Source: Thalassotalea atypica (lineage in GTDB: Bacteria > Pseudomonadota > Gammaproteobacteria > Enterobacterales > Alteromonadaceae). Taken from it: a stretch of 64,000 nucleotides of DNA. A model generated the notes under the pieces. The model had not been told where the DNA came from. It ran no database searches and was given only the letters and a program-made list of their open reading frames with translations. How positions within the stretch are numbered: position 1 is the stretch's first letter; each line of letters begins with the position of its first letter. The stretch covers positions 2,852,001-2,916,000 of the forward strand of contig NZ_AP027364.1 in NCBI RefSeq assembly GCF_030295975.1, read 5' to 3'. Position numbers and translations under genes: made by a program. Below are positions 31,401-48,896 of the stretch, one piece after another.

Positions 31401-31961
31401 AACGCAATAAACAGCCGATGATTTAGATATCTCTTTCTTATTTATTTTATCTTTAAATATTGTTTGAACTAACCGAAATAACTTACGATATTTATCACTT
31501 AAATCATCATTTAGTTGCGAGTTAGTTGATGTTTGTGCAGCTTGATTAAGTATTTTGATACTATCTTTGAGCGTATTAACCTTTCTAAAGCTAGTGCCTT
31601 CAATCTCCTCCAGTAACAACAACCAATCTTCTTCACTTAACAACTTTATTGACGTTTCTTGAGAAGGTATATGGATGATGTTTTTTAATACGAGCTTTTT
31701 CTGTTTTGAAGATATTTTTGAACTGGAATTAATTCGATTAATTAAATCTTCATATGCTTCTTTGACATTTACTCTAAGGTTGGTTGCGTAAATTAGTTTT
31801 TTCTTTGAATCACTTATTAGGTGCTCAATTTGCAGTTCAGTTGCCTGATATGTCTTTCCAAGCCCTGTTTGAGCATCAACTAATGCTATGAATCCTTCAT
31901 CCTTTTGTACAGCTTCTGGACCCGCTAAATCTATATATGCTTTATACAGCTCACTATTCAT
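28446..31961 (-). CDS. ddmD: DdmD, SF2 helicase-nuclease of the DdmDE system
   Basis: This protein has 1171 residues from the ATG at 31961; the frame extends to a TTG at 32045 (1199 residues). The ATG has AGGGATAG upstream and the TTG has no visible site. Walker A is AQTGLGKT (about 30-37). Later motifs are FDEFD (Walker B), GISATA (motif III), TNYQATGAGLSP (motif V) and QALGRMCR (motif VI). The C-terminus has FDGYLAVGNTVLLIDVKHW, a PD-(D/E)XK nuclease core. In known DdmDE, DdmE recruits DdmD to plasmid DNA, which it unwinds and degrades. A WYL regulator is divergent. Confidence 0.85.
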   Translation of the reverse strand: MNSELYKAYIDLAGPEAVQKDEGFIALVDAQTGLGKTYQATELQIEHLISDSKKKLIYATNLRVNVKEAYEDLINRINSSSKISSKQKKLVLKNIIHIPSQETSIKLLSEEDWLLLLEEIEGTSFRKVNTLKDSIKILNQAAQTSTNSQLNDDLSDKYRKLFRLVQTIFKDKINKKEISKSSAVYCVLTKIFPACRIDDSSTQVIFMTTAKLLYPWHSLEKNYRISDVLKDSLIIFDEFDRQQGEFLSHLLKDSKEFDVISLVRRLYSSFQSFKVEGDEEFEGVDSSFNKFRSQLKEFNANWNISYRPYITDTTIQAGAENQNRVFTMLSDRMSLHTINFKHDELTSNINEVAGSHEIGTGGDKSAITFVNNGSQVIRAFCNAMLSATNTLSNNLKKIDGSKPHSTEDLVVKVLNHFGLAEMRYDIISLLSARLSFRLQKEYKSYSYHDSGFEIARVSKFNDLDNTATAATFELALTPTGLLANWVLEGAQILGISATATSRTAIHNFDLPYLKNILGSKFKHLDNQQKKGIQQEYLSKRRYEENNVNISVAAVSENDLRGGVKSLYKEFLGGMVDDLMLESRIAKLLEVSSDPKSIDFATKRVNKLIASIKKFSDHSSNRYHFCMLNKSYKGTEFFRFMEFIGVKYGIKVFENINAASFRNDKFNSVLELLEETDEKVVVITNYQATGAGLSPSYKINNTKGLFYIGPDGEPPLQNKTDIDSIYLEQPKSLIGSYIFEDQALEERSIAIKKNIHDALMLHEQELLVANDVKPILNKFIASNIKSMSVNSMIGLYKDTDDYRYAVYRFIEQALGRMCRTEWKQPEISIMFDAEFDFIETLASDNRELSYLSFEYSALITMMKKEFKFEAKEKLANAYSAKASRNHSHIQRLITSVYRHQNSDAIGQYNRLRKLVLNKPTSSEIPTGEANRYYIRSEILGSYAYHIDNKDEHSVTQVFINSDDYSPQNIVSGLSARLNILMLNKVIKEHFETNGFATSFGQHEYIISPAMYDIYMGALGEEAVFSILKEFNYYIEEMPEGTVEWFDGYLAVGNTVLLIDVKHWDMDKSCLQRDDTFEKCKSKLKNLKEKMPPDFKGKKLQALYINVSYSEGSNITGSTFSDKENVLVESAKLLDADVIDVPGVLDIKTGQSNIPPMEQLLNLLETIKGISDE

Positions 31962-32103
31962 TTCAATTCTATCCCTATAAGTTGAAGCATAAAATAATAA
32001 ATGCTTTAAAAATCTGCACCTTGACTCAGAATAAACTTCATTCAATAACAGGTCGTTTTCTATACTTACAATTTAATGTATATTATTGCTACATGTAAAT
32101 ACT

Positions 32104-32121
32104 GTACACATATATGTGTAC
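32104..32121. promoter_or_regulatory. 18-bp perfect palindrome, likely operator of the WYL regulator
   Basis: GTACACATATATGTGTAC is a perfect palindrome in the divergent space between ddmD and the WYL gene, 20 bp before the WYL start. BrxR/CapW-type regulators are dimers that bind inverted repeats at such divergent promoters, so this is the likely autoregulatory and ddmDE-controlling site. Confidence 0.65.
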
Positions 32122-32140
32122 CATTTTCGAGCAGGTGCGA

Positions 32141-32980
32141 ATGAACTTTGATGAATTAAAATGGGATCAAATTTTAAGATTCAGACTTATAGAGATAGTC
32201 GCTCTATGGGAAGGTAGGTTAACCACCAATCACCTCTGCGATGCATTCAAAATTGGCAGACAACAAGCATCTCGTGACATATCAAAGTACAAATCGCTTT
32301 TTGAGCATGAGCAAATCATTCTAGATCAAAAAATAAAGGGCTATAAACCTACGCCTGATTTCTTACCAAAATTTATCAAAGGTGCTCCAGGTGAATACCT
32401 GTCTTTCTTACACCAACAGCAAACCATGGATAATTGTTTTGAGTTTTTTAACTGGGGCAATGCCGAGTGTGAAATATTAAATGTTCCTGACAGAGCTGTA
32501 TCACCTAATATAGTTAGAAAACTGATCATAGCGGCCCGCGAATGTCGTCGTGTGGATGTTGAGTATGTTTCACTATCATCGCCATACGTAAAAGGTCGAA
32601 TCATAACGCCACATACTATCATTTATGATGGAGTTAGATGGCATGTCCGGGCTTACTGTGAAGAAGTTAAGACCTATATTGATCTGGTGCTTAGTCGATT
32701 TAGAAATGAGCCTGATTTAATGGATATTTCAACTCACACAAGAGATGGGGATGAAAGCTGGAATACCTATATAGATATCACTATCACTCCCAATCCCTAT
32801 TTATCTAAAGCTCAACAAGAAATCATCTCCACTGACTACAACATGAAAGGCAATGAGTTAGTACTTAATGTCAGAAAGCCATTAAAAATGTACTACAAAC
32901 AACGTTTTCATATTTGTGAGGATGATAACTTGTTAAAAAGTCACCCTGAACAATATCATTTAACACTTAAACTATCTTAA
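32141..32980 (+). CDS. WYL-domain (BrxR/CapW-type) transcriptional regulator
   Basis: The protein has 279 residues from the ATG at 32141, preceded by AGGTG. The frame is open from 32114, but that start lies inside the palindromic operator. The order is a winged helix-turn-helix (LTTNHLCDAFKIGRQQASRDISKY), a WYL core (VDVEYVSLSSPYVKGRIITPH, then GVRWHVRAYC) and a C-terminal dimerisation region. Family members repress defence genes and are thought to be released by a ligand or nucleic-acid signal. It is divergent from ddmD, which points to control of ddmDE. Confidence 0.85.
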   Translation: MNFDELKWDQILRFRLIEIVALWEGRLTTNHLCDAFKIGRQQASRDISKYKSLFEHEQIILDQKIKGYKPTPDFLPKFIKGAPGEYLSFLHQQQTMDNCFEFFNWGNAECEILNVPDRAVSPNIVRKLIIAARECRRVDVEYVSLSSPYVKGRIITPHTIIYDGVRWHVRAYCEEVKTYIDLVLSRFRNEPDLMDISTHTRDGDESWNTYIDITITPNPYLSKAQQEIISTDYNMKGNELVLNVRKPLKMYYKQRFHICEDDNLLKSHPEQYHLTLKLS

Positions 32981-33009: not shown

Positions 33010-33405
33010 TCAAATCAAATTAAACGCTTTAATAAACGGCTTATGATGTTGATGAAATTTTATATTGTCTGGGGAATTTAAGCGCTTTCTGCGCTTCTTG
33101 AAGGGTTTAGATATATAGCCCCAATTAGCACTTTTCGAAAAATAAATGACGTAATCAATCTTCGCATCACCCCATTTATTTTCAACTAAGTGAGACTCAT
33201 CTGCTGACTCAACCGTTTTAATTTGAATCCGGTAGAAGTTAACGCCATCACTCACCAATAGATCTGTTTTCATATCATGGTCAATAACGGGAACAAAAAC
33301 TTCCCAACCATCGTAGGTAAACCAACTGGCTGCTAAAGTTTCAAAAGAGGTATTTTTATAATATTGATTTGCTGGTGCTGTGCGGTTTGCATTTTTAACA
33401 GGCAT
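33010..33405 (-). CDS. Small PD-(D/E)XK-type nuclease-like protein
   Basis: This is a 131-residue protein. FETLAASWF provides an early Glu (22), KTDLLVSDG provides Asp48, and YRIQIKT provides Q-x-K (61-63), fitting the E...D...(Q/E)xK core of PD-(D/E)XK nucleases. It converges on the WYL gene and shares no obvious operon. It may be a solo nuclease, a resolvase-like enzyme or a remnant of a larger system. Confidence 0.6.
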   Translation of the reverse strand: MPVKNANRTAPANQYYKNTSFETLAASWFTYDGWEVFVPVIDHDMKTDLLVSDGVNFYRIQIKTVESADESHLVENKWGDAKIDYVIYFSKSANWGYISKPFKKRRKRLNSPDNIKFHQHHKPFIKAFNLI

Positions 33406-33655: not shown

Positions 33656-35254
33656 TTATAATTGAGCATACCTTAAGTTATTTTGCCCCATAAACATAAA
33701 TAACCCTTTTAAACTTTCTTCTGATTCAGGATCATCCCAGCCTCTTAACCACCGAACTTTTATTCCCAAATAATTAGCCCATGCAACTGCTTTTTTCATA
33801 TCCCTGTATTTATTACTTTTAGCACAAGATTCAATGTATTGATTTACCAATTTATACTGATGCCCACCAGCAGAGTACTTTGCTTTAGTAAAAGCTTTTT
33901 TATAAAAAACATTAGCATTTACATTATCTTCTCTACGGTAATAAAAATTTGCATAAGCCCAATCGCATAACCAACCTAAAGTATCTTCAAGCCCTTTCAC
34001 CCTTAATTCACTTTCAAAATTTTCAGCTTGGGTAAGGGAACTAATACTATTTTTCAACTTTAGTCCTTTTCCAAAGAGTTCTGGAAACGACGTGGGCATT
34101 TGTTCTCGAATATTAAATTTTCCAGTTTCAAGTAGTGAATATGCCTGCAAAGACCCTACACATGATATATGCACCATTGCAGCTTCTCTCTCAGAAATAC
34201 TTTTAAAAGCATCAGCTTCAATGTAGTCCTGTAATACACTAGCTCCGGCTTGCTGCTGAGCAGCATACCGTTGCCAAAACTGCCCAACATACTGATAATT
34301 TATCTCATCCTTTTCAGCCACAGTTAGATTTCTATAATCCGATTTAATTGAATCTAATTCGGCTCCAAGCCTTTTGTTAACTCGTTTTAACCTTCCTGAC
34401 TGCCCTTTAATGTGCGCACACACATTTAAAAGGAAATAGTCCCCAAAAGATTTTTGAAGCTCTTTAAAAAAGAAAGTGGCGGCTCTTGCAATAAACAGCA
34501 TTAATTTGAACTCACTCGCCTGCTTATCACTCACTAGTCGATGAGTCTTTTCATCTGTTGAGCTTTTTAATAATTTCAATGAATAATCAAGGTTTGCATA
34601 CAAAGAGCTGATACTTGGCAATTGCTTCCCAGCCACCCAGCGTTGTGCCTTTTCTAGATTTTGAATCGCTTTATAGTCGCCTGCATCTTTATCTGAATTG
34701 TGAAATCCTGATTGACTAATCGAAAGGGAACGATAAATGAAATTCCATGCATGAGCCAAAGGCCAAGTAGTTTTTTTATTATTAGTTTCCGGCAGCACCC
34801 AAGAAATTAGCTCAGGAACATTGAGCTTCTCATCAACAACATTAAATCGTAGGTAGTTCTTATAAAAAGAAATAACCAATCTATCTAGCAAGTAAACCTT
34901 GATAAACCATTGTGTCGTTTTCTTTTTGCTTAAGTATGTTCCATCGTCTTTTAACACAGCTTTATAGGTCACTAAAAGCTCTTCGACGAATTCCATAATC
35001 ATACAAGCGACTCGCTCATTAGGGATCGCTTTGATGAGAAGTTTTTTAAGTGTAATTAATAACTCATCAAGTTTGCCGTCAATTTTTGAGCTTTCATCAG
35101 CAAGTCGTTTCAATTGCATTTGAAGCGTTTTCTTGTCACTAGCTGATAATATTGAGTTATTTGGATCTTCTTTTTGTGGCAGTAGCCCAGAACAATTAAA
35201 GATTTCCCTAACTACTTCACCAATAGTGGGGAATGAGATTTCTATATTTTCCAT
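33656..35254 (-). CDS. Uncharacterised 532-residue protein, largely helical
   Basis: The ATG at 35254 is chosen because the alternative TTG at 35272 lies inside a terminator stem. No nuclease, NTPase or membrane motif is visible. The sequence looks helical throughout, and residues from about 425 on (LGWLCDWAYANFYYRRED, then VFYKKAFTKAKYSAGGHQYKLVNQYIES) suggest TPR-like repeats. It follows a 42-residue Asn/Gly-rich gene across an attenuator-like hairpin. As part of the island it may be a defence component, but no function is assigned. Confidence 0.6.
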   Translation of the reverse strand: MENIEISFPTIGEVVREIFNCSGLLPQKEDPNNSILSASDKKTLQMQLKRLADESSKIDGKLDELLITLKKLLIKAIPNERVACMIMEFVEELLVTYKAVLKDDGTYLSKKKTTQWFIKVYLLDRLVISFYKNYLRFNVVDEKLNVPELISWVLPETNNKKTTWPLAHAWNFIYRSLSISQSGFHNSDKDAGDYKAIQNLEKAQRWVAGKQLPSISSLYANLDYSLKLLKSSTDEKTHRLVSDKQASEFKLMLFIARAATFFFKELQKSFGDYFLLNVCAHIKGQSGRLKRVNKRLGAELDSIKSDYRNLTVAEKDEINYQYVGQFWQRYAAQQQAGASVLQDYIEADAFKSISEREAAMVHISCVGSLQAYSLLETGKFNIREQMPTSFPELFGKGLKLKNSISSLTQAENFESELRVKGLEDTLGWLCDWAYANFYYRREDNVNANVFYKKAFTKAKYSAGGHQYKLVNQYIESCAKSNKYRDMKKAVAWANYLGIKVRWLRGWDDPESEESLKGLFMFMGQNNLRYAQL

Positions 35255-35260
35255 AATTAT

Positions 35261-35283
35261 AAAAGGCCCCAATGTAAGGGGCC
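35261..35283 (-). terminator. Terminator or attenuator hairpin between the 42-aa and 532-aa genes
   Basis: On the minus strand GGCCCC and GGGGCC (35278-35283 with 35265-35270) form a 6-bp G-C stem with a 7-base loop, followed by TTTTAT. It comes after the 42-residue gene and immediately before the next start at 35254, so read-through would control the downstream gene. Confidence 0.7.
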
Positions 35284-36298: not shown

Positions 36299-39037
36299 TT
36301 AAAAATCGACAGAAGTTTTTTCAAATTTAGAAGCAAAGCTGCTCAATGTATTATGTTCTTTCACTTCATCATGCGGAATAAGCAAGTATTTCCACTCTTT
36401 ACCACTATTCTTTTGTAAATATTGAGATGCGTTCTCACACCACTTAGCGCCAGATTTAGCTTTTTCGGTTACTTCTTCATTCCATGAACCATCTTCATTT
36501 CTATGTTGAGTACTCTTGGTTTCAATCATATAAACAGCATTAGACGTTTCAGCAACAAAATCTGGTACATATTCAGGGTGTTCAGTCCCCATTTTATAGT
36601 ACATTTTGAATTGACCTTTAGCAGGCTTGAACCACTTTTCAGCATCTCGTTCTACTATGACAGAAAATCGACGTTCCGTATCAGAGTCAAATTTCACAAT
36701 AGGGTAAAGACATTTAGCGAAGTTACCGAAGAGCATTTGTTTAATTTTGGCAACTTCTTTTACTGTATCTCTAAAGCTATGAATATCCTGCCCTTTGGTT
36801 GCAGTGTACGAACAACCTTTTAAGGTAGTGAAACCACTTCTTACTTCAACTTCATACTCAGTTGCATCTTCATAAAAGTGCTTATCCATTTGCGAATGAA
36901 TATTTTTAGCAATTGCGTCACTTTGGTTTTGAAGTACGTTTTCTACATCCTTATCATCTTGTAGATAGCCTTTTAAGTGCTCTACTACTTGTTGTGATAA
37001 ATCATGAAGAATTTCTGCATGTTCATCATAAGAAATATCATCGTAGTTAAAGAGCTTTTTCAAAATGTAATTTTCTTTTATTGGTTCATAGTTACCTGTA
37101 TCACCTTCACCAATTTCAGTTTGTTGGTTCGTTTGTAAACTTTGACTTACCAACTCTCTATCTTGCGGGTTAAATTTCAAGCCTGAAACATCAAGAGTGA
37201 ATGGGCGGTAACCATTACTGACTTCACCTTTTGGAGTAACAATTACACGCGGAATATCAATGGTGTTGTTCACAACAAGCTCAGTCGCTTTTTCTATTAC
37301 TTTTCCAACATTCACGTTACCTTGTTCATCAATTAATGTTTGTTGAACATTTGATAACTGTTCAGTAACTGCTTTAGTGATTTTTTCTTGTAATTCAGCG
37401 TCTAATAGAGAGCTACTGGTAGGAGCTTGTGAAGGTTTATGTTGAAACTGTTTAATAACATCCAAAGTAACTTGTGCAATAGTTTTTTCTGCAACACCAT
37501 CAAATTGTGGTACTGATGCAGTACTTGAATTATAAGTAGTACCAGCACTACCAACTGGGGTATTACCTGATATCAAATTTTCAACATTTGAACCAACAAT
37601 AACACTTTCTTTTGCTTGTTCGTCTTCAGGACGTTCTAAAATGAGCTGTTTTAATCGTAAAGGGTTTTCAGGATCATTGGCAGCATCAACAATTTCTTGA
37701 AACTTGTCATGTGCAACAATACTCAAACGGTCAACCGCTTCAACACCAGTTCGCTTACCATAAGGTAAACGTAAACCACGACCTATCGATTGTTCTATAA
37801 GTGTTCGTGCGTTAGCTGCCCTAAGTGGAACTATCGTATAAAGGTTAGTAACATCCCAACCTTCTTTAAGCATATTTACATGTATTACTATTTCAGTTTT
37901 TTCTTCAACACTTTCAACAGCAAGTAATCTTGCGATCATCTCGTCTTCAGCAGCACCCGATTTACTACTATCGACTTGAATAACCTTACCCTTATAGCGC
38001 TCGTCAAATACATCTTCTAGCTTAGTTAACAACTCACTCGCATGGGTTGTATCCCTTGCAATAACTAACATGAAAGGTTTAACGACTTTAACTTCGTTTA
38101 CATTAGCGTAAGTCAATAATTCAACTTTTGTTGCCTCATGTAATCGAATACCGTCCATTAGCTTAATTGTTTCTAATTGATCTTTACTATGCTGGCTAGC
38201 GTCGAAATTTCGTTGTGTTACAACAGCAGGTTCTTTCACAAAACCATCATCCATTGCACGTGCTAATGGGTAATCTACAATGACATTTTTAAATGGTGCT
38301 GGTTTACCTGAGCCACCTTTCTTCTCAACAAATGGTGTCGCTGTTAGCTCTAAACCAAATATTGGTTTTAATTCATTAATAGCCTTAACGCCGGCACTTG
38401 CACGATAGCGGTGAGATTCATCCATTAAGAGCACTAAATCAGGTAATTTGGCTAAATGGTTAAAGTAACTATCACCGATATATTCTGATAAGCGTTTAAT
38501 CTTAGGTGCTTTACCGCCTCTAACTTCTGAGTTTATTTTAGAGATATTGAATACATTAATCGTAACATTACCAAACATATCATCCATGTACTGGGCACCA
38601 CGTTGTTGATAATTGTCTCCAGTAATAACTTCTGGAGGATAATTAGCAAACTCAGCAATCCCTTTAAATACATACTTTGCTGAATCAGGAGAAAAATCAG
38701 CTATTAGCTTATTATAAATAGTGAGATTAGGAGCAAGTACAAAGAAATTTCTGATGCCGAAAGCTTGATAAAGGTACGCAATAAAAGCTCCCATCAGCCT
38801 TGTTTTACCTACACCTGTAGCTAGAGCAAAACATAATGAAGGGAATTCACGCTCAAAGTCTTCTAATGTAGTAAACTCTGCCTTTAAAGTGTCTAATAAT
38901 GCAGGCACATCGTGTTTATGGTCTAAAAGCCTTTCATCCGTAGCATCAATTGCTTTTGCTAATGCCTCTAAAGATTCTCTCTGAGGCGCTCTTAAACTTA
39001 AGCGACCAGTAATAGAGTTTAATGTTCTTGTATCCAT
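36299..39037 (-). CDS. res: Type III restriction-like Res subunit (DEAD/DEAH helicase-nuclease)
   Basis: This is a 912-residue protein. Walker A is ATGVGKT (73-79), motif II is DESH (206-209), motif III is ELTATP and motif VI is EQSIGRGLRLP. Near residue 830-855, YVPDFV...YMIETK is a PD-(D/E)XK nuclease. This is the plan of type III restriction Res subunits: ATP-driven translocation followed by cleavage. It is the last gene of a six-gene operon, 23 bp after the second Mod gene. A conserved segment before the nuclease has no motif I recognise. Confidence 0.88.
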   Translation of the reverse strand: MDTRTLNSITGRLSLRAPQRESLEALAKAIDATDERLLDHKHDVPALLDTLKAEFTTLEDFEREFPSLCFALATGVGKTRLMGAFIAYLYQAFGIRNFFVLAPNLTIYNKLIADFSPDSAKYVFKGIAEFANYPPEVITGDNYQQRGAQYMDDMFGNVTINVFNISKINSEVRGGKAPKIKRLSEYIGDSYFNHLAKLPDLVLLMDESHRYRASAGVKAINELKPIFGLELTATPFVEKKGGSGKPAPFKNVIVDYPLARAMDDGFVKEPAVVTQRNFDASQHSKDQLETIKLMDGIRLHEATKVELLTYANVNEVKVVKPFMLVIARDTTHASELLTKLEDVFDERYKGKVIQVDSSKSGAAEDEMIARLLAVESVEEKTEIVIHVNMLKEGWDVTNLYTIVPLRAANARTLIEQSIGRGLRLPYGKRTGVEAVDRLSIVAHDKFQEIVDAANDPENPLRLKQLILERPEDEQAKESVIVGSNVENLISGNTPVGSAGTTYNSSTASVPQFDGVAEKTIAQVTLDVIKQFQHKPSQAPTSSSLLDAELQEKITKAVTEQLSNVQQTLIDEQGNVNVGKVIEKATELVVNNTIDIPRVIVTPKGEVSNGYRPFTLDVSGLKFNPQDRELVSQSLQTNQQTEIGEGDTGNYEPIKENYILKKLFNYDDISYDEHAEILHDLSQQVVEHLKGYLQDDKDVENVLQNQSDAIAKNIHSQMDKHFYEDATEYEVEVRSGFTTLKGCSYTATKGQDIHSFRDTVKEVAKIKQMLFGNFAKCLYPIVKFDSDTERRFSVIVERDAEKWFKPAKGQFKMYYKMGTEHPEYVPDFVAETSNAVYMIETKSTQHRNEDGSWNEEVTEKAKSGAKWCENASQYLQKNSGKEWKYLLIPHDEVKEHNTLSSFASKFEKTSVDF

Positions 39038-39060
39038 TTTATTATCCTTAATTTTTATTA

Positions 39061-40773
39061 TTAGTCGCTAAAAACTGTATCAATGTCTTGATCTAACTCA
39101 TCAGCCATCGGTAAATTTTTTACATTTAAACTGTAATCATCATGCGCCCACTCACAGCGATTAAGCACCATCTTAGGTATCTTCTTAATGGTTAAGTTAG
39201 CAAATTGGTCTGGGTTACAGCGAAATGCGGTACAACAAACCAATAGCGTTCTATCACTACCTACCGCTTCGGAAAGTTGTTCTAATTTTTCGATGGAAAG
39301 GTTTTGTGTGGTAACCGTAATAAAGTCAGTTTCAGTGGAATAACCATGATTCCACCATTCAGTTTCTGACGGTGAATAAGTAAAGCCTTCTAACTTACAT
39401 ATCGCTTCAGCTAACATTTCAGGTTTATAGTCTTTATTGATAACCCAGTTGTCCCATTGATCTTTTTCTAACAGTGAAGGAGCTAGGCTGTAATAGCGGA
39501 AACCGCCACCACCTTGCCAATCCACTGCCTTAGATATGCCGTCTTGGTCAACTCCGTCTATTATTCTTTTAAACCGAGGTATAATATGACTGTGACAATG
39601 TTCGCCTAATTCAATAGTTATCCATTTACGACCTAACTTATGAGCAGTTGCTGCCGTACTACCTGAACCACCGAAAGAATCTAAGACTAAGTCACCTTTA
39701 TCAGTGGACATCTCCAAAACTCGTTTAAGAAGTGCTTCTGGCTTTTTGCCATTTGGGAATTTTACTCCACCCTCTTTATGTAAATTATTGGATAATAAGT
39801 CATCCCACAAAGTTGACAGAGCTTGTGCTGTAACAGTTTCACCATCAATAAGCTTAGTTTTTGATGAATAAAAAATTAATTGCTCCCCATTGAGAAAATA
39901 GATGTCACTACTGCCTTCCCTTTCAGCTTTAAAAACAATATTTTTATTCTCTTTAGAGAGACGGAGTTGTTCTTTAGCAGCCGCAGCAACATCCTTTTCC
40001 GCAATTCGTGCTGTACGAACAACCCTTCTAGGCTCTGCAAGAACAAACTTCTCAATTTCACTTTCGTATTTAGCACCTAACTCTTTTTTTAGTAATTTTT
40101 TTTCAATCCCTTTAAAACTAGCAAATGCTTCAGCAATAGGTTCAAGCCTCCACGTACTATAATCATCCTCGAAATTACTTATATATTTAGAGTAACGACT
40201 ATCTCTATCTGTTTTGACATATAGCTTGTTAGGTTTCCAGCTACTTTTATTCTTAGCATAAATAATTACAAAGCTCGTTGTACTTACCAATCCTGGGTTC
40301 ACTGATTTGGGTCCAGATACCGAACTTTGTTTAAAGGTTGATATGTAAGTTCTGTTACTTCTTCCAAAAATTTCATCTAATAGAACTATAATGTAAGCTA
40401 ATTCATTATCATCGATATGTATAAAAAACGTACCGTCATCAGATAAAAGCTTATGAAGAACTTCTATACGACTTTTCATTAAATTAAGCCAAAGGGAGTG
40501 CTCTACTCCATCATCATAATGCTCAAATGCTTGCTGGGTATTAAAAGGAGGGTCGATATAAATACACTTTACTCTGCCTGTATACTCTTGCTCTAAAGCT
40601 TTTAATGCCAATAAATTATCACCAAAAATTAATTTATTATCAAAAATATCATTTTCATTTACTTTATGAGATGCGTGATAAGATTTACTCGGATCTTCAA
40701 GTAAAATTCTTGGTTCCAGTTTAGGACGCTGGTTTTTCCCAACCCATGTAAGTTCTAGTTTTGTATGACTCAT
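39061..40773 (-). CDS. mod: Type III-like DNA adenine methyltransferase, copy 1 (Mod)
   Basis: This is a 570-residue beta-class methyltransferase: catalytic motif IV DPPFN (74-78), then a variable target-recognition region (about 140-340), then SAM-binding motif I DSFGGSGST (365-373). The C-terminal part from residue 415 is nearly identical to that of the neighbouring copy. It has one base in common with the end of that gene (ATGA-type overlap), which implies coupled translation. With Res it should form a Mod-Res complex; adenine N6 is the expected target base. The recognition sequence cannot be predicted. Confidence 0.9.
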   Translation of the reverse strand: MSHTKLELTWVGKNQRPKLEPRILLEDPSKSYHASHKVNENDIFDNKLIFGDNLLALKALEQEYTGRVKCIYIDPPFNTQQAFEHYDDGVEHSLWLNLMKSRIEVLHKLLSDDGTFFIHIDDNELAYIIVLLDEIFGRSNRTYISTFKQSSVSGPKSVNPGLVSTTSFVIIYAKNKSSWKPNKLYVKTDRDSRYSKYISNFEDDYSTWRLEPIAEAFASFKGIEKKLLKKELGAKYESEIEKFVLAEPRRVVRTARIAEKDVAAAAKEQLRLSKENKNIVFKAEREGSSDIYFLNGEQLIFYSSKTKLIDGETVTAQALSTLWDDLLSNNLHKEGGVKFPNGKKPEALLKRVLEMSTDKGDLVLDSFGGSGSTAATAHKLGRKWITIELGEHCHSHIIPRFKRIIDGVDQDGISKAVDWQGGGGFRYYSLAPSLLEKDQWDNWVINKDYKPEMLAEAICKLEGFTYSPSETEWWNHGYSTETDFITVTTQNLSIEKLEQLSEAVGSDRTLLVCCTAFRCNPDQFANLTIKKIPKMVLNRCEWAHDDYSLNVKNLPMADELDQDIDTVFSD

Positions 40774-42401
40774 TAAATATCTAATCCTATTTGTTCATCA
40801 GTATCATCAGCCATCGGCAAGTTTTGTACATTTAAACTGTAATCATCGTGCGCCCATTCACAGCGATTAAGCACCATCTTAGGTATCTTCTTAATCGTTA
40901 AATTAGCAAATTGGTCTGGGTTGCAGCGAAATGCGGTACAACAAACCAATAGCGTTCTATCACTACCTACCGCTTCGGAAAGTTGCTCTAATTTTTCGAT
41001 AGAAAGGTTTTGTGTGGTAACCGTAATAAAGTCTGTCTCAGTTGAATAACCATGATTCCACCATTCAGTTTCTGAGGGTGAATAAGTAAAGCCTTCTAAC
41101 TTACATATCGCTTCAGCTAACATTTCTGGTTTATAGTCTTTATTGATTACCCAGTTGTCCCACTGATCTTTTTCTAACAGTGAAGGAGCTAAACTGTAAT
41201 AGCGGAAGCCACCACCACCTTGCCAATTAACTGCTTTAGAAATACCACCTTGATCTTCACCATCAATAACTTTTTGCATGCGAGGAATAATGTGAGTGTG
41301 GCAGTGATCACCAAGCTCAACCATGATCCACTTACGTCCCATTTTATGAGCTACAGCACCTGTTGTTCCTGAGCCACCAAATGAATCTAGAACAATGTCT
41401 CCTTTATTAGTAGACATTTCAATAATTCTGTCTAATAACGGTTCTGGTTTGGGTGTATCAAATGGAACTACATCCCTGTGCAAGGTTTTTAAATGAGCTT
41501 TAGACTGTCTCGATGTTTGAACATCACACCAAATTGTCGGATATGGTTTAGTCGGATTTAAAGGGGCATATTCCCTTGTATACGGAATCCACTTTTCATC
41601 TCTCAACTTCCAAACTAACTCTTTCCGTTCAACAAGCTCACTGACTCTTGCTTGCCCGCATGCCCATCTAGCATCCTGGCCATCATCGTGAACAGGGTAA
41701 ATCTCTGTACCATCTGGAGCTGTTATTGGAAAATACATCGATGGTCTGTCTTTACGAAGACTACTTTTTCCATTTTTTTTCAACAAACGGTCCCTATATG
41801 GCCTAGATGACTCTTCATCCGGTTTGCGGTAAGCGTCTAATATACTTGAATCTGGTTTTTGTTTTAATTTACATACATCTGCATCACTTGCGTAGCAAAG
41901 TATATAATCGTGATCAGAGTAAAAAGGTTTTTTATTTTCACTAGGACTATCAACCTTCTGCCATATAAAATTGGTTATAAAGTTAGAGCGCCCAAAGATT
42001 TCATCCATCATCACTTTTAAATATGCGTGCTCATTGTCATCACAATGGACCCAAATAACACCATCTCTACTTAATAGCTTTTTTAAAATAGTTAATCGAT
42101 CTTTCATAAGAGATAACCATAACGAATGTTCGATTCCGTCATCATAATGCTCAAATGCTTGTTTAGTATTGAAGGGGGGGTCTATATAAATACATTTAAT
42201 TTTACCGGAAAACTCACTTTCTAACGCTTTCAATGCTAATAAGTTATCTCCAAAAATAAGCTTGTTATCGAAAATATCGCTTTCAGCTATTTTGTGGTTT
42301 GCATGATATGATTTAACTGTGTTTTCCAATAATATCCTAGGCTCCAGCCTTGGGGACGTGTCTTTACCAATCCAAGTAAGTTCTAATTTCGTATTATTCA
42401 T
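40773..42401 (-). CDS. mod: Type III-like DNA adenine methyltransferase, copy 2 (Mod)
   Basis: This is a 542-residue paralogue of the next gene: DPPFN (74-78) and DSFGGSGTT (339-347), with the same N-terminal 140 and C-terminal 170 residues but an unrelated central target-recognition region (about 145-320). Both catalytic motifs are intact. Two Mod genes with different recognition domains and one Res suggest either two specificities or a mixed Mod dimer. It follows the AIPR gene after 8 bp. Confidence 0.9.
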   Translation of the reverse strand: MNNTKLELTWIGKDTSPRLEPRILLENTVKSYHANHKIAESDIFDNKLIFGDNLLALKALESEFSGKIKCIYIDPPFNTKQAFEHYDDGIEHSLWLSLMKDRLTILKKLLSRDGVIWVHCDDNEHAYLKVMMDEIFGRSNFITNFIWQKVDSPSENKKPFYSDHDYILCYASDADVCKLKQKPDSSILDAYRKPDEESSRPYRDRLLKKNGKSSLRKDRPSMYFPITAPDGTEIYPVHDDGQDARWACGQARVSELVERKELVWKLRDEKWIPYTREYAPLNPTKPYPTIWCDVQTSRQSKAHLKTLHRDVVPFDTPKPEPLLDRIIEMSTNKGDIVLDSFGGSGTTGAVAHKMGRKWIMVELGDHCHTHIIPRMQKVIDGEDQGGISKAVNWQGGGGFRYYSLAPSLLEKDQWDNWVINKDYKPEMLAEAICKLEGFTYSPSETEWWNHGYSTETDFITVTTQNLSIEKLEQLSEAVGSDRTLLVCCTAFRCNPDQFANLTIKKIPKMVLNRCEWAHDDYSLNVQNLPMADDTDEQIGLDI

Positions 42402-42409
42402 TTCAATTC

Positions 42410-44218
42410 CTATAACTGCACTGACTTACCGGATAAGCAATTAGTTAAATTTTGATTATATGGGTCACTGTAATCTATGCGAGCTTGAAGCTTAATCACA
42501 TTTTGGTCTTGAGTTAACCCTTGATATTTGATCGCTACATTTTGTATTAATTTTGTAGTATCTGATAGCCTTTTAAAAAATGCGTGATGAGCTGAACCTA
42601 GTCCGTCAATAAGGTATTGATCCGCAAATTTTTGTCGTAATTCATCAAAAGAGCCACTGATTGTTGCCTTGATATCTTCCTTTGTTAGAATTACATCACC
42701 GCAAATTTTACTATTAAAACTTTTCATTAAAATACTTGCCATAGCATAGTTACAGTGCCTATAAACTAGCTTTTCAGGACTAGGACTAGATCTCTCTGCA
42801 ATAAGTAGCAACTCAATAATCACGGAATATACATAAACGGCATTAATTGCTTTACTGCCCGACAAGTCAGCTTTAAATATGCCTTTATATACGTCAGACT
42901 CATAATTAACGAACTGGCTCGGTTCAGTCTTAAGGCGCACAGGGAAAGTAATATCTTTTTCTAAACAGGCTAAAGCTTTAGACAATGTCTCAATTTCTAT
43001 AATAGGTATATTTTTAGATAGTTGGCGTTGAGGGCGATAATGGTACTCAACACCATATAATGCTATTTCTTGCCTCAACTTTTCTTGATTGTCATCTAGA
43101 GCAGCAAAGTTAGATAGGTCAACTGGGTTCTGCAAGTTACGAGCTTTTGTGACTTGTTTATGAAAGCTGTCTGAACCAGTATTTATGAGTGTTAACATTA
43201 CCTGAGCACTATCAATATTGGCACCTGGATTTTCTTTTAAAAATTGGGCTGTTGTTGAAATGGTTTGTGCGCCATTTACAACAGACATACCAGTAACTTC
43301 AAACTCTCTAGTTGTTTTGTTATCTCTAGATTTGGAACGTTGTTTAACAGAATTACCTACAACTGTAATACCATTATTAAGATACAGAAAATGCTCCGGT
43401 TCATTCAATAAAGTATTCTTAATTGCAGAATTAACGCCTCTACGTCCTGTCCCTATAAAATACCTAATATTCTTTTCATAGAAACTTCTTCCATGCTTTT
43501 CATGTAATTTAACTAAATCCTTTAAATTAACGATTCCGAATACTGTTTTTTTAGGTGTTTCACTTAAACGATATTTTTGTATTTTTATTCTATCATTTAC
43601 TAGCTTTATGGCACTTTCATCACGTAATGTTTGTTCTACATTAGTTGGGCCAAAATCTACATAGGCTAGTTGTAATTGCTCTTCACCATCATCAATTTCA
43701 GCTTGAACTACTCGCTTTATTTCATTTTGAGCTTGTATGGAAATACCGTCACCAGTGTATGCAATAACTAGCTTTATTTGATCACATTCATCAAGCGCTT
43801 TTTCAATTGCAGGGATAAGCTTCTTCACGTTTGCATTAAACGAATCAAAATCTTTATTAATAATCAGTTTTACACCGCTAAGAAAAGATTGAGCTTCAGC
43901 CAACTGAAATTGTTCTGCGCCCTTTAATTTTGATTGTACTATATATAGTGTTTTGTCTAACTCATTGTAATAAATAGCATCAATACCGTTATCGTTATAA
44001 TCATCGACAACAGCTTGTGAGGCAGTTTTTGGGTTGGCATCGAATAATGCTTGTAATGCAAATGCACTAAAGGCTCTGGAAATTTGTTTATCTTGTTTAT
44101 TATCAGTATTAGCGTTGCCTAATAAAGGCGGGAGATATTGAACAAATCTTTCTTGTAATAATTTTTTTAATGCAACTAACATTGGTTTTTGAATTGCTGG
44201 CACTACTTCACACTCCAT
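42410..44218 (-). CDS. AIPR-family (abortive infection phage resistance) nuclease-like protein
   Basis: This is a 602-residue protein. The N-terminal part has GIDAIYYN (Asp80) and IVQSKLK (95-99), a PD-(D/E)XK D...QxK core. The AIPR signature follows: FIGTGRRGVNSAI, YLNNGIT and VVNGAQT (about 250-325). AIPR proteins occur in abortive-infection and other phage-defence loci and are presumed nucleases. The gene overlaps the helicase gene upstream by 16 bp, so production is linked. Its place in a restriction-modification operon is unusual. Confidence 0.88.
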   Translation of the reverse strand: MECEVVPAIQKPMLVALKKLLQERFVQYLPPLLGNANTDNKQDKQISRAFSAFALQALFDANPKTASQAVVDDYNDNGIDAIYYNELDKTLYIVQSKLKGAEQFQLAEAQSFLSGVKLIINKDFDSFNANVKKLIPAIEKALDECDQIKLVIAYTGDGISIQAQNEIKRVVQAEIDDGEEQLQLAYVDFGPTNVEQTLRDESAIKLVNDRIKIQKYRLSETPKKTVFGIVNLKDLVKLHEKHGRSFYEKNIRYFIGTGRRGVNSAIKNTLLNEPEHFLYLNNGITVVGNSVKQRSKSRDNKTTREFEVTGMSVVNGAQTISTTAQFLKENPGANIDSAQVMLTLINTGSDSFHKQVTKARNLQNPVDLSNFAALDDNQEKLRQEIALYGVEYHYRPQRQLSKNIPIIEIETLSKALACLEKDITFPVRLKTEPSQFVNYESDVYKGIFKADLSGSKAINAVYVYSVIIELLLIAERSSPSPEKLVYRHCNYAMASILMKSFNSKICGDVILTKEDIKATISGSFDELRQKFADQYLIDGLGSAHHAFFKRLSDTTKLIQNVAIKYQGLTQDQNVIKLQARIDYSDPYNQNLTNCLSGKSVQL

Positions 44219-47079
44219 TGAATTGTAAATAAACTTTCTATTTCCGTTTTTTTACTTAATTTTGCTTCTAAATTGTCGATCAACTCTTCTCTTCGTTCAT
44301 CAACTTCATCTTGTTTGTCAAAAAGCTCTTTACGGCTTTTATTTCTTAAACTCTCTAATTTTCGTTGCTGTTTTTGCATTGATAATTTTTCTTCTAGAGT
44401 CGCGGCTATTTTGGCCTCTCTTCTGACTTGCTTAATTTCTTTATCTAATTCTTTAATCGTTTGCTCTAAACCTTCTTTTAAATCATCAGCCCATGAATCA
44501 AGCTTTATTACTTCTTGTTCAAAAAAGGTTAAATTTCTGTCGTTCACATTTTTGGTGGTTTTGTTACGATCATCATTTAATATTGATTCCAGTATATTTT
44601 CTGTCTCTTCTGACGGCTTAATTACTGAATTATGTTGTTCCATAACGGCAGATAGCTGCATTAACTTTTGAGTTACTTCACTAGAGATAATATTGTTATT
44701 TTCATCTATTGCAGCAAATAGTAAGTAATCTTCATTACGTTCAAGAGATTCAATTGAAAACTTCTGTAATGTTAATGTTCCTGACTTACCCACTAAACCT
44801 TTAACCATCGAAACTTTGGCTTCGTGATTACTATAATCAAAAGTAATATGAGCATTATCTAATGAGAGGCTTTTAGCATTTTCGATTGCCCATTCACCAA
44901 GAGGGTGAGTTAAACGATATGTATAGGTGTGAGGTAGCAAAGCCTCATTACTTTTCTTATTTCGACGTATTAGCTGATATTTACCTGTTGGTGACTCGGC
45001 CAATGGAGAGTTAAGCTCGAAACTATGCTCTTGCTCATTAAAGACGGCATGATCTTTTAGCTGAAATTTTGATAATGCCCAAAACCACCTTCCAATTTTA
45101 TCTAAACGTTGGTTTGCTGCATCTAATTGAATTTTTAAAAGATCATGAATATCTTCATCAAAGTTATCTAGCAATAGCTGGCGAGTTTGAGTCATTTTCT
45201 CGTTGATATCTTTTTCTAGTTCTTTTCTTAATTGCGAAAAAGCAGACTCAATTTGATCTGGCGTTCGGCAATTGTCATAGATAAATTGAATTCGTTTTTC
45301 GAAATCAACACCTGACTCAATGCTACCTAATATGTCATCTGAAGCGCCAAATACACCGTCAAACAAGTGAAATTTTTCGGTTAGTAATTCTAAAACTCGT
45401 TGATCAGCTTTATTTGATTCATTTAAAAAGTTTATAACAACTACATCAAATTTTTGGCCATATCGATGACACCGTCCAATTCGTTGTTCAACACGCTGGG
45501 GGTTCCATGGAAGGTCATAATTTATAATTAAGGAACAAAATTGTAAGTTAACACCTTCAGCAGCAGCTTCTGTAGCTATCATTATTTCGGCTGAATTTTT
45601 GAAATAGTCGATAAGAGCAGATCGACGATCTATTTGAGCAGAGCCACTTACAATATCTGAATCTTTATTTTCATCACGCCAGTTTTGATATATTTCTGTT
45701 GCTAATGGCTTATTGTTGGTGCCACTGAATGTTACTATTTTATCGAGGTAGCCGTTAGCATTTAAGTAATTCTCTAGATATTCTTGAGTGCGTTTTGACT
45801 CAGTAAAAATAATTACTTTTCTAGGTGCTCCCATAAATTCCATTTGCTCGAAACCTTGAGATAAAGCGATGAGTAGTGCTTTAGCTTTACTATCGACTTT
45901 GATGTTACTTGCTTGATCTATGTAATATTCTAATTCAGCGATCTCAGAAGCTAATAACTGATGATCAATTTCACTTTCTTCAACCAATGGCTCTTCATAG
46001 TAATACTCATCAACATAATCTTGTTCAAGGTCATCGCCATCAGTTAATGATTCAATTAAATGCGTGTTAAGTATTTCGCCTGCTCTGAGTTTTTCTAATC
46101 GTTGTTTTATGGTACTCAAGGTATTTAATACAGCATAAGTACTAGAGGCTAATAGTTTTCTTAAAATTAGCCCGGTTAAATGACGCTGCCTTTTTGGTAG
46201 TGCATAACTTTCATCTTTTTCTAATAGAGAACTAATGCCATTATATAAATCTTGCTCTTGCGGAGAAGGCAGGAATGGAACAGTTAGCGTCTGTCTTTTG
46301 GTATAACGAACATACTCCAGTACATCTTTACGCAATGTTCTTTGGATGAAGGACTTTAGTCGAACTTGCAAGCTAGCTAGTGCTCTATCATTTTGCACGT
46401 ATTGTTGACGAAATGCTTTGTCATCACCAAACAAAGTATCATCTATAATAGTAGATAACCCGTATAGCTCCATCAAAGAATTTTGAATTGGGGTCGCTGT
46501 AAGTAAAAGTTTATTTCGGCCTTCAAATGTTCGCTTTAGAGCCTGCCCCATTTTATTGCTTTTTCGATGCGCATTTCTTAGTTTATGTGCTTCATCGAAA
46601 ACGACTATATCCCATGGTTCAATCAGTAGCTTCTCTTCCATTCGAACTGCAAAGTGATATGACACAATAGAAATACAACTTTGGGCCAAAGGATTATAAA
46701 CACCTTCTTTTTGAAGCTGTTTCCATGTTTTCGCATCTAATATTTGTGTTGGTAAATTGAATTTGTCTTTGAGTTCTTGTGCCCATTGCCTTCTCAATGA
46801 AGCAGGACAAATAATGAGTAACGTTCTTCTGCGTTCAGCCCAATATTGAGATAGTACAAGTCCTGCTTCAATTGTTTTACCTAAGCCTACTTCGTCAGCT
46901 AGCACTACACCTTTACTCAAAGGATTACTTAAAGCGAATAAAGCGGCATTTATTTGATGAGGGTTTAAATCAACACTTGCATCAAAAAGAGATTGAGACA
47001 ATCTATCAACACCATTCGATGCATGTTGTATTGTTAGTTCATGTGCAAAATACTTTGCTTGGTATGGAGTTATTTGCAT
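44203..47079 (-). CDS. SNF2-family helicase with C-terminal coiled coil
   Basis: This is a 958-residue protein. Motif I is DEVGLGKT (62-69), motif II DEAH (162-165), motif III LTATP and motif VI QRIGRCHRYGQ, the SNF2/RapA set. From about residue 850 a long charged coiled coil runs nearly to the end (EQTIKELDKEIKQVRREAK and on). Similar helicases serve DISARM and other defence systems as DNA translocases. It begins one base into the WYL gene stop (TAATG). It presumably couples DNA movement to the AIPR/Mod/Res proteins encoded after it. Confidence 0.88.
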   Translation of the reverse strand: MQITPYQAKYFAHELTIQHASNGVDRLSQSLFDASVDLNPHQINAALFALSNPLSKGVVLADEVGLGKTIEAGLVLSQYWAERRRTLLIICPASLRRQWAQELKDKFNLPTQILDAKTWKQLQKEGVYNPLAQSCISIVSYHFAVRMEEKLLIEPWDIVVFDEAHKLRNAHRKSNKMGQALKRTFEGRNKLLLTATPIQNSLMELYGLSTIIDDTLFGDDKAFRQQYVQNDRALASLQVRLKSFIQRTLRKDVLEYVRYTKRQTLTVPFLPSPQEQDLYNGISSLLEKDESYALPKRQRHLTGLILRKLLASSTYAVLNTLSTIKQRLEKLRAGEILNTHLIESLTDGDDLEQDYVDEYYYEEPLVEESEIDHQLLASEIAELEYYIDQASNIKVDSKAKALLIALSQGFEQMEFMGAPRKVIIFTESKRTQEYLENYLNANGYLDKIVTFSGTNNKPLATEIYQNWRDENKDSDIVSGSAQIDRRSALIDYFKNSAEIMIATEAAAEGVNLQFCSLIINYDLPWNPQRVEQRIGRCHRYGQKFDVVVINFLNESNKADQRVLELLTEKFHLFDGVFGASDDILGSIESGVDFEKRIQFIYDNCRTPDQIESAFSQLRKELEKDINEKMTQTRQLLLDNFDEDIHDLLKIQLDAANQRLDKIGRWFWALSKFQLKDHAVFNEQEHSFELNSPLAESPTGKYQLIRRNKKSNEALLPHTYTYRLTHPLGEWAIENAKSLSLDNAHITFDYSNHEAKVSMVKGLVGKSGTLTLQKFSIESLERNEDYLLFAAIDENNNIISSEVTQKLMQLSAVMEQHNSVIKPSEETENILESILNDDRNKTTKNVNDRNLTFFEQEVIKLDSWADDLKEGLEQTIKELDKEIKQVRREAKIAATLEEKLSMQKQQRKLESLRNKSRKELFDKQDEVDERREELIDNLEAKLSKKTEIESLFTIQWSVK

Positions 47080-47975
47080 TATTCTATTGTCTTGTAACCT
47101 GGTGCAATTGCTAAATTTTCTGCACCATAAAGTGTTTGTCTATTCCTAAGCCAAAGTTGATACTCGCCGCCTATTAACGATGCATTTTCAGTACAATCAA
47201 CATTCCAACGACGCAGTAAATATCCTGCTAGTGCTGCTCTCACATTCAGCTCTAAAACACCTTTGTCCATGGCATAATCCATTTGAATAGCGGTAGCGTG
47301 TTCTATGTTGTTAGGATGCGGAACTAACTGAAGTGGCATCATGCGCATCCATTGATTATCTTCTAACTTATCTTCATGATTTTGAAGTACATCGTCTTTA
47401 ATAGTGACTTTACTGATACGGGTAAGAACAAAATCCCTGAATGAATTTGATTTGCGATCAAAAGCTCGAACATGCCATCTTAGTCCATTATCAATAATAC
47501 TATGGGGCACTAACTCTCTTGCAGCGGAGCCACTAGAAAGTGAAGTATAAATAATACTTACTGCCTTATTATTGAGGATAGACTGGACTAGTTTAGCTAC
47601 GATGAATATATCTGGCACATTCAGTTGGCTAGGGGCATCCACGGGAAAATTAATATCGCCAATAGCATCAAAACCATCGGTAATATTGTTCGCTAACTTA
47701 ACAAGTGTTTTTCGGGCATCGTGCTTAAATAAAGGTTTGAACAGCTTTGTTTGGCAGTACATTTTAGCTGGATTATCAAAATCACAATTTTTTGGAGCTA
47801 ATTCTCGGTATAGGGCAATATCCCTTGTCGCATTAGCCATCCCCATTTGAAATTTTGAAGTTAAATCGCTACGTACAAACGTCCCTTTAAACATCAATAA
47901 GAAATCGATAAAGGCTAATCTTTGTTTCTGAGCGAAGCTAACTTCTTCAAGTTTTTTATTATTGTTATTACTCAT
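47079..47975 (-). CDS. WYL-domain (BrxR/CapW-type) regulator heading the helicase-AIPR-Mod-Res operon
   Basis: This is a 298-residue protein. It has an N-terminal winged helix (GTFVRSDLTSKFQMGMANATRDIAL), a WYL core (VSIIYTSLSSGSAARELVPHS, then GLRWHVRAFDRKSNSFRDFVL) and a C-terminal region. It is a distant homologue of the other WYL regulator in this island. Here it is the first gene of the operon it probably controls, so autorepression is expected. No ribosome binding site is evident before the ATG. Confidence 0.85.
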   Translation of the reverse strand: MSNNNNKKLEEVSFAQKQRLAFIDFLLMFKGTFVRSDLTSKFQMGMANATRDIALYRELAPKNCDFDNPAKMYCQTKLFKPLFKHDARKTLVKLANNITDGFDAIGDINFPVDAPSQLNVPDIFIVAKLVQSILNNKAVSIIYTSLSSGSAARELVPHSIIDNGLRWHVRAFDRKSNSFRDFVLTRISKVTIKDDVLQNHEDKLEDNQWMRMMPLQLVPHPNNIEHATAIQMDYAMDKGVLELNVRAALAGYLLRRWNVDCTENASLIGGEYQLWLRNRQTLYGAENLAIAPGYKTIE

Positions 47976-48236: not shown

Positions 48237-48896
48237 TTAGCACTCAACAACAGGAAAGCATGGCTCGCCCCAAAGTTCATTCGAACTGTCCATCATTATT
48301 GTAATAACAGATGGTACAAATTTACTCATGAAAGCAACAGCATCACGCATTTGGTCCCTGTTAACTGCACTGTTCCATGTTGCACCACCATGCATTATTT
48401 GATTACGTAACGTATATAAACGAGAGAATATTACGGATAGGACTGCTGAGGTGTTTTTGTGACCTAGTGCCTTATGTGCGAAAGCATTAGCGGTTTTAAA
48501 ATCATCTTGCCATTCTTGCTCTGATTTTTTGTTATTGTGAAAGTCCCAGAATGGTTGAAATACATATTGGTTACTAAGAAGCACCCTAATACTACTGGTG
48601 AACTCTTTCCAGACTAGGTCTGATAGTAAGCTACCTTTATCTAACTGGCATAACCTATCAATAAAATTTCGAAAGGTTTCTTGTTCGGTGAAGCGGTGGT
48701 GGTTATCTATTTCATTGGCATATGCCGCATTAAAGGCTATCCATAAGAAAATAAACTGCGCGTCTTGGTCACCTTCAGCTTGCTCGGCTCGATCTAACCA
48801 GCTTAAAGCTCGATGTACTCGAAGGTTTAAGTTTAAAGGATAATTATCACGCTCTTTACGCTGTCGTTCTTTTAAATTTTTATACGTTAAAATCAT
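48237..48896 (-). CDS. HEPN-domain protein (putative RNase)
   Basis: This is a 219-residue helical protein. The HEPN signature R-N-x(3)-H is present as LRNQIMHGG (Arg164, Asn165, His169). HEPN proteins with this motif are commonly metal-independent RNases in toxin-antitoxin and abortive-infection systems. An upstream helical half (FIFLWIAFNAAYANEI) fits the Apea-like HEPN subfamily. It is coupled to a 39-residue membrane protein and is the rightmost cargo gene of the element. The RNase role is inferred from the motif. Confidence 0.75.
   Translation of the reverse strand: MILTYKNLKERQRKERDNYPLNLNLRVHRALSWLDRAEQAEGDQDAQFIFLWIAFNAAYANEIDNHHRFTEQETFRNFIDRLCQLDKGSLLSDLVWKEFTSSIRVLLSNQYVFQPFWDFHNNKKSEQEWQDDFKTANAFAHKALGHKNTSAVLSVIFSRLYTLRNQIMHGGATWNSAVNRDQMRDAVAFMSKFVPSVITIMMDSSNELWGEPCFPVVEC

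Follow-up and report, generated by a model that had tools for sequence, protein, structure and literature searches.

Type III restriction-modification (R-M) enzymes methylate a single strand of an asymmetric site and, in an ATP-dependent reaction, cut DNA with two such sites in inverted orientation. They combine a methyltransferase, Mod, which marks self DNA, with a subunit, Res, which cleaves unmarked DNA once a second site has been encountered (PMC8259958; accessible part of PMC12707154). In Eco86II, described by Murray et al. 2021 (PMC8259958), a third gene encodes an "additional helicase-like ATPase" that adjoins Mod/Res in more than 500 genomes; the Mod is active without this ATPase, ATPase peptides were absent from the Eco86II preparation that cut DNA, and the role of the extra ATPase was left open by its authors. 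The association of AIPR proteins with R-M operons was already noted in the available portion of Iyer 2008, and the accessible text of Makarova 2012 (PMC3506569) places AbiU1/AIPR with R-M and with type III systems and offers the hypothesis that immunity and suicide are coupled. Another R-M locus with an embedded effector is EcoprrI, whose PrrC is switched on when T4 Stp inhibits the enzyme (accessible part of PMC12707154). Here we describe a six-gene operon of Thalassotalea atypica, located at positions 36299-47975 of a 64,000-nucleotide stretch of contig NZ_AP027364.1 (positions 2,852,001 to 2,916,000; the whole stretch is called the window). The locus belongs with the three-subunit kind of type III system, consisting of an SNF2 ATPase, Mod, and Res, the core of which is already known. 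It is a restriction system of a known if little-studied kind, to which comparison adds the tandem arrangement of its Mods, the lineage of its AIPR, the movement of SNF2 between Mod/Res families, and the swappable cargo between the core genes.

All six open reading frames (ORFs) lie on the minus strand in one tight operon, and their coordinates were confirmed. The first gene encodes a WYL-domain regulator of 298 amino acids (aa) (47079..47975; PF13280, 42.8 bits), followed by an SNF2/RapA-type ATPase of 958 aa (44203..47079; PF00176, 115 bits, and PF00271) and an AIPR/AbiU-family protein of 602 aa, the proposed fallback effector and a suspected agent of cell shutdown (42410..44218; PADLOC AbiU, 114.7 bits), whose PF10592 score of 122 bits against a Pfam cut-off of 25 places it in that family. 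Next come two type III methyltransferases, Mod1 (542 aa; 40773..42401; PDLC03636, 721.7 bits) and its tandem paralogue Mod2 (570 aa; 39061..40773; PDLC03636, 666.6 bits), and the type III restriction subunit Res (912 aa; 36299..39037; PDLC03648, 647.4 bits; PF04851, 78.7 bits), which combines a helicase motor with a C-terminal PD-(D/E)XK domain. From 5′ to 3′, WYL and SNF2 overlap by 1 nucleotide (nt), SNF2 and AIPR by 16 nt, and Mod1 and Mod2 by 1 nt, with gaps of 8 nt between AIPR and Mod1 and 23 nt between Mod2 and Res. Judging from the sequence, the true AIPR start may be a GTG at about 44203 that overlaps the SNF2 stop (TAGTG), five codons downstream of the annotated one. A first-pass annotation of this DNA had reported that all six genes overlap or lie within 25 bp, which is borne out by the overlaps of 1–16 nt and gaps of at most 23 nt. 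It had also reported two methyltransferases, and both are present, with the correction that they are tandem paralogues with unrelated middles.

The expected motifs were present in all of the operon proteins except WYL. SNF2 carries DEVGLGKT, DEAH, and QRIGRCHR, and both Mods have the type III order of motifs, with DPPFN at residue 74 ahead of DSFGGSG at residue 339 in Mod1 and 365 in Mod2, as well as a nearly full-length match to PDLC03636. The assignment of Res as a type III subunit is supported in the same way by its PDLC03648 match together with a Walker A motif (GVGKT, residue 75), a DExH motif (DESH, residue 206), and a C-terminal PD-(D/E)XK motif (PDF at 825 and ETK at 839). In AIPR, residues 78-97 (43928..43987) contain a PD-(D/E)XK-like motif of conserved residues, D80-x14-Q95-x-K97.

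The two Mods are 72% identical over their first 138 residues and diverge in the middle, target-recognition region (Mod1 residues 139-312, 41466..41987; Mod2 residues 139-338, 39760..40359), where identity is 18–47% at the aa level in 30-column blocks. At the C-terminus, three blocks totalling 90 aligned columns are 100% identical in aa and 94–97% in nt sequence; they belong to a repeat, 86% identical over 648 bp, in which the Mod1 copy (40804..41450) pairs with the Mod2 copy (39098..39744). Among the Mods compared, the Mod1 middle is closest to those of a Lysobacter (L082, 62%), a Verrucomicrobiaceae (L116, 58%), and a Deinococcus plasmid locus (56%), and the Mod2 middle to those of L057 (47%) and L102 (43.5%). 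Since the middles are unrelated and have different nearest relatives, Mod1 and Mod2 probably represent two specificities, and we infer that both share the single Res. A second recognition region acquired by an existing system, followed by homogenisation of the C-terminus, would look like this pair, which illustrates a possible route for type III systems to a second specificity, the acquisition of a single recognition region. The window is the only one of 39 loci of its Mod/Res family with two adjacent full-length Mods of that family; genome G510, in which no SNF2 was found, has two tandem Mods as well, 68% identical to each other, so that the arrangement is rare and not unique.

The link to Eco86II is made by the SNF2 protein: in an alignment of 959 positions it shares 58.6% identity with its counterpart in E. 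coli NCTC86. In that strain an SNF2-related gene is followed by genes for a methyltransferase of 1040 aa and then a helicase of 1126 aa, and from strain, gene order, and content we infer that this locus is Eco86II. The closest solved relatives of the window SNF2 by sequence are RapA chains, its C-terminal part has a coiled-coil look (judged by eye only), and a Pfam profile search found no nuclease domain in it. A homologous extra ATPase lying 5′ of mod and belonging to no endonuclease family places the window in the three-subunit group, with AIPR here intervening between SNF2 and Mod. The Mod/Res family is another matter. NCTC86 Mod is only 26% identical to Mod1, NCTC86 Res gave no match to the window Res, and the NCTC86 proteins score as family B (1419 and 1966 bits), where family A denotes the Mod/Res family of the window and family B that of Eco86II, so that the window falls outside the Eco86II family by this measure of kinship, a criterion added here and outside Murray's definition. 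In a tree of 51 SNF2 rows, the clade of the window sits among family-B proteins despite its family-A Mod/Res, and the starred branches force at least two changes of Mod/Res family; by this phylogenetic evidence, SNF2 has moved between Mod/Res families. Both this tree, which holds only six family-B rows, and the Res tree below are quick trees with flagged long branches, from which X letters were removed and short rows dropped (L132 from the SNF2 tree, L085 from the Res tree).

SNF2 is also found on mobile DNA. At E ≤ 1e-100, 50 of 72,556 plasmid records matched, 32 of the 50 typed as conjugative, and a Salmonella plasmid carries a 70% identical SNF2 with an insertion sequence and an Abi gene in place of AIPR; phage records gave one match at E ≤ 1e-60, on a 4.5-kb contig. 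The idea that SNF2 is an obligate partner of the window's Mod/Res family was rejected, as no SNF2 was found with some of the Mod matches; SNF2 is usual and not obligate. The order sample of 394 genomes, own genome included, contained SNF2 in 20 (E ≤ 1e-60), AIPR in 26 (1e-10), and Res in 12 (1e-40), with SNF2 beside Res in 10 of these 12. The exceptions are a genome with only a broken Res fragment (G162) and one with an internally deleted SNF2-Mod remnant (G385; L146:7122-7718, plus strand), where the beginning of SNF2 seems to have been joined by the deletion to the final part of Mod, with Res still open. A class sample yielded a Mod match (E ≤ 1e-80) in 23 of 369 genomes. For the 14 Mods at least 53% identical over about 500 or more residues, SNF2 was adjacent in nine, on another contig in one, and not found in two (G534, G701), the remaining two Mods lying near contig ends; for the other nine, partial or more distant, it was adjacent in two, on another contig in one, and not found in six.

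A scan of a species-genome collection gave at least 555 confirmed SNF2 loci, the best 80 of which were used. Together with order loci and the window, 60 loci were counted in which Mod and Res come after SNF2; SNF2-last loci (L048, L078, L112) and cut loci were set aside, and genes were called with our own ORF caller and small hidden Markov models. SNF2 or Res is broken or contig-cut in at least four of the 60 (L085, L107, L122, L132). Because SNF2 followed by Mod and Res recurs in 60 loci, 39 of family A and 21 of family B, the arrangement is more than chance. Five of the family-A loci (L062, L080, L093, L108, L132) score weakly for Res, at only 31–54 bits, and share a deep branch of the Res tree with two plasmid loci. 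The regulator varies: a WYL match lies just 5′ of SNF2 in three of the 60 loci (the window, L044, L065) and a small helix-turn-helix (HTH) protein in nine, with neither in 46 and two not assessable; beyond these, L187 has a WYL match 5′ of SNF2 and L153 an annotated WYL gene.

Between the core genes, the loci differ in what they carry. Within family A, AIPR lies between SNF2 and Mod in 10 loci, 16 have no AIPR and instead carry other genes of 120 aa or more between SNF2 and Res, and 13 have neither; nine of the 21 family-B loci have genes of this size in the same interval. Pfam was run on representatives of 18 of the 25 cargo clusters, and 15 of these 18 matched a family: AAA_21/AAA_15 ATPases, DUF4276, RhuM, Schlafen-AlbA_2, Abi_2, the YhcG nuclease, Fic (in a family-B locus), GmrSD with HNH, BRO-N, AAA_31, a protein kinase, and SIR2. 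Some cargo stands beside AIPR instead of replacing it (Abi_2 in L061, an AAA gene in L082, YhcG in L051). PADLOC models matched HEC-01A (525 bits), HEC-01B (292), Dsr2 (479), AbiD (257), and Ppl (78, partial), and E. coli 55989 holds IetA (350 bits) and IetS (1202 bits) between SNF2 and Mod; the 55989 locus was matched in 72 of 5426 E. coli genomes, and the window SNF2 DNA in 243 of 5426. Such exchange of defence systems, often complete ones, in the same slot suggests a chassis whose backup weapons can be swapped. Many cargo starts look by eye like TAATG/TGATG. A universal cargo junction, with a conserved start 16 nt inside the SNF2 end, was considered and dropped, an open in-frame start being there in only 9 of the 60 loci.

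In a tree of 34 AIPR rows, all 12 SNF2-linked AIPRs, including those of the Deinococcus plasmid and E. coli 90-1, fall on one side of a single branch (support 99/98), the 22 others being six plasmid AIPRs and 16 from order genomes without an SNF2 match at 1e-60. When L187, 26% identical to the window AIPR, was added, 13 of 13 remained in one group (97/96). D80, Q95, and K97 are conserved in all 13, and R360 is found in 12 of them (T in L187) and in none of the 22 others. As the SNF2-linked AIPRs form one clade with shared residues, the link between AIPR and the SNF2 locus looks old and specific. Its presence is nevertheless changeable. On the Res tree (45 rows), presence of AIPR changes seven times, with all 12 carriers in one 19-row clade, and the sister loci L051 and L052 carry AIPR and a PHP-AAA gene, respectively. 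A close relative of the 90-1 locus is carried by 29 E. coli genomes, with AIPR annotated in 19. Five others have an 89% match, and in the one inspected (L171) only AIPR residues 407-612 are left, 100% identical; four have an IS1-family element and a 64% match, with no AIPR annotated in the one inspected (L157); and one matches over SNF2 only. Among the 28 E. coli copies that retain Mod and Res, nine thus lack an intact annotated AIPR, one of each kind having been inspected.

Built on the observed gene content, intact motifs, family relations, recurrence, and exchange of cargo, the reading that we favour, with somewhat better than even confidence, is a three-subunit type III R-M operon with two Mods and with AIPR in an exchangeable cargo slot as a fallback effector. 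Mod1 and Mod2 would methylate two different asymmetric sites and so mark self DNA, and through either Mod the shared Res would be directed to phage or plasmid DNA that lacks the mark and would cut it. SNF2 would be a DNA-tracking ATPase; since it was not needed for Eco86II methylation or in-vitro cutting, its substrate is probably acted on inside the cell, for instance by the clearing of bound proteins or the remodelling of stalled Mod-Res complexes, and its role is the least certain step of the mechanism. AIPR would form a second line, a nuclease-like effector that is quiet while restriction works and is released when a phage blocks or survives restriction. This role is proposed by analogy with PrrC in EcoprrI and agrees with the hypothesis of coupling put forward in Makarova 2012. 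Control of the operon probably falls to the WYL protein.

The tight operon and the AIPR clade could also be taken to mean that all the genes make up a single obligate machine, which would be a new system with AIPR as an essential nuclease fed by SNF2 and Mod/Res. This was the reading of the first-pass annotation. Its expectation that an SNF2 helicase and AIPR recur with Mod/Res across genomes was confirmed, and the SNF2-AIPR-Mod-Res arrangement occurs in Alpha-, Beta-, and Gammaproteobacteria, in E. coli, and on the Deinococcus plasmid. The locus also looks like a defence locus, as that annotation held. We nevertheless consider the obligate machine very doubtful. Of the 39 family-A loci, 29 have no AIPR, which agrees in part with an outcome that the annotation itself had named as damaging, its changes on the Res tree and the difference between L051 and L052 speak against it, and so do the E. 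coli copies that keep Mod and Res without an intact AIPR. The claim that no described system has this content was not supported, since the core is the type III group of Murray et al. 2021 and AIPR was noted with R-M in 2008 and with type III in 2012; a catalogued match, the other outcome named as damaging, exists for part of the locus, as PADLOC lists Mod/Res as type III R-M. Profile searches supported the annotation in setting the locus apart from BREX, DISARM, and MZA. A variant of one of these or of MADS would be suggested by the best PADLOC profile of SNF2, DrmD (672 bits), by the weak MzaE match of AIPR, and by the HTH of the E. coli homologues, which is annotated as MAD1. We regard this as extremely improbable. 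The NCBIfam DrmD cut-off was missed (680 of 950 bits), DrmB and DrmC gave no match among the six proteins at 1e-25, and the DrmA match is the SNF2 helicase itself. At the same threshold, these six proteins gave no PglZ or BrxC match for BREX, no mad model for MADS (whose full gene list was not consulted), and no partner model for MZA, where the MzaE match reaches 50 of 1050 bits. The MAD1 annotation lies just above its cut-off (81.3 against 80), and the window has WYL in place of HTH.

A more serious, if still unlikely, alternative is that AIPR merely travels as a passenger. It would then be an abortive-infection gene in its own right, sharing expression and mobility with the restriction enzymes and making no functional contact with them. 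Complete defence systems of unrelated kinds, IetAS and HEC-01 among them, occupy the same slots, E. coli copies lose AIPR and retain the core, and six of seven plasmid AIPR regions inspected (L159-L163, L165) have no SNF2 or type III Res in their listed flanks, the gene tables being incomplete; the seventh is the Deinococcus SNF2-AIPR-Mod-Res locus. Repeated draws from the pool of solo AIPRs would scatter in the tree, however, while the SNF2-linked AIPRs form one clade in which R360 is nearly constant, and none of the 22 others has it. We also find it improbable, less so than an obligate machine, that SNF2 serves at least two Mod/Res families as a general adaptor, linking the restriction enzyme to whichever complete defence module fills the neighbouring slot (AIPR, IetAS, HEC-01, Dsr2-like, and others) and licensing that effector when restriction fails, with two DNA specificities served here; recombination between the near-identical Mod C-termini could then switch a locus between one and two specificities. 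Several points weigh against the fallback-effector reading that we prefer. Solo AIPRs exist, for instance on a 5.6-kb mobilizable Klebsiella plasmid (L162:970-2730), so AIPR can live without R-M; others lie near a DNA adenine methylase (L159) or a type II R-M pair (L163). Loci in which no SNF2 was found have cargo as well (L185, with a YhcG-like gene between Mod and Res, and L182 and L183, which lie at contig ends), so SNF2 may be dispensable for coupling. The deep part of the AIPR clade depends on two long branches, those of Deinococcus and L187, and Mod1 and Mod2 might pair into mixed dimers whose properties differ. The accessible text of Makarova 2012 (PMC3506569) assigns the AIPR N-terminus to a HEPN domain, a predicted RNase; the conserved D-x14-QxK here looks instead like PD-(D/E)XK, and no solved AIPR relative was found in the PDB.

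The operon sits in a defence island alongside a divergent DdmDE pair and a KAP NTPase. The plasmid-defence pair (26495-32045, minus strand) consists of a 653-aa DdmE-like protein, scoring 94 bits to Vibrio cholerae DdmE structures, and a 1199-aa DdmD-like protein, scoring 301 bits to helicase chains of the same entries; a second WYL gene lies next to it (32114-32980, plus strand). The KAP-family NTPase (23285-24748, plus strand) matches the candidate defence family PDC-S20 (302 bits). On the 3′ side of Res are a small PD-(D/E)XK-like protein (33010-33405, minus strand; below cut-off at 22.1 of 26.1 bits) and a 538-aa protein (33656-35272, minus strand), and a 219-aa gene (48237-48896, minus strand) separates the operon from gcvP; profile searches gave no family above cut-off for either of the latter two. 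The 219-aa protein has an RNQIMHG stretch that presumably recalls HEPN proteins. Five of six congeners searched have gcvP, and the approximately 15 kb next to it in these five gave no window match beyond the gcvP 3′ end (blastn, E ≤ 1e-15), so that the island starts at about 49.0–49.1 kb.

Other genes were seen 3′ of Res elsewhere. Loci from different phyla (L098, L103, L106) have genes of 379–380 aa and 919–929 aa whose starts resemble SbcD/SbcC by eye, and Paracoccus sp. MKU1 has a 1740-aa open frame (L110:17618-22838). L146 has genes that, by eye, resemble a type I-C CRISPR-Cas operon, and L051 has genes of similar lengths.

Set beside the known systems, the locus has the gene order SNF2, Mod, Res of Eco86II/BspHIV (Murray et al. 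2021, PMC8259958), with BspHIV likened by description only, and an SNF2 whose homology to the E. coli NCTC86 protein spans its full length; it adds AIPR, a second Mod, and a WYL gene, and its Mod/Res are of another family. DISARM class 1/ARMADA likewise places a related SNF2/RapA-type helicase beside a methyltransferase (accessible part of PMC12458937), whereas the window has a type III Mod/Res pair, no DrmB or DrmC match, and no separate DrmA; no search was aimed by name at the YprA-like helicase of ARMADA. The idea of exchangeable backup effectors has a precedent, since diverse auxiliary and backup effectors are reported at BREX loci in the available part of a 2026 paper (PMC12839542). The portions of Iyer 2008 and Makarova 2012 available to us note the association of AIPR with R-M and do not describe the SNF2-AIPR-Mod-Res order, the exchange of cargo, or tandem Mods, and no description of this order or of the cargo slot of this group was found in the literature searched, with subscription papers and most preprints outside its scope. 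Another close arrangement is that of E. coli 90-1 (L158), where a MAD1-like HTH gene, SNF2, Abi, AIPR, Mod, and Res follow in an order like that of the window, with identities of 70% for SNF2, 56% for AIPR, 68% for Res, and 57% for Mod (to Mod2). It differs in having a single Mod, an AbiD-type gene before AIPR, and HTH in place of WYL. With exchangeable defence systems between the core genes of this group and an AIPR lineage tied to them, two questions, the role of the SNF2 subunit and the coupling of restriction to suicide proposed in 2012, become testable in E. coli. PrrC and AIPR belong to unrelated families. EcoprrI is a type IC R-M enzyme with PrrC as its embedded anticodon nuclease, and thus type I where the window is type III; nevertheless, in both a toxin-like effector gene lies within an R-M locus, and the proposed fallback logic is alike (accessible part of PMC12707154).

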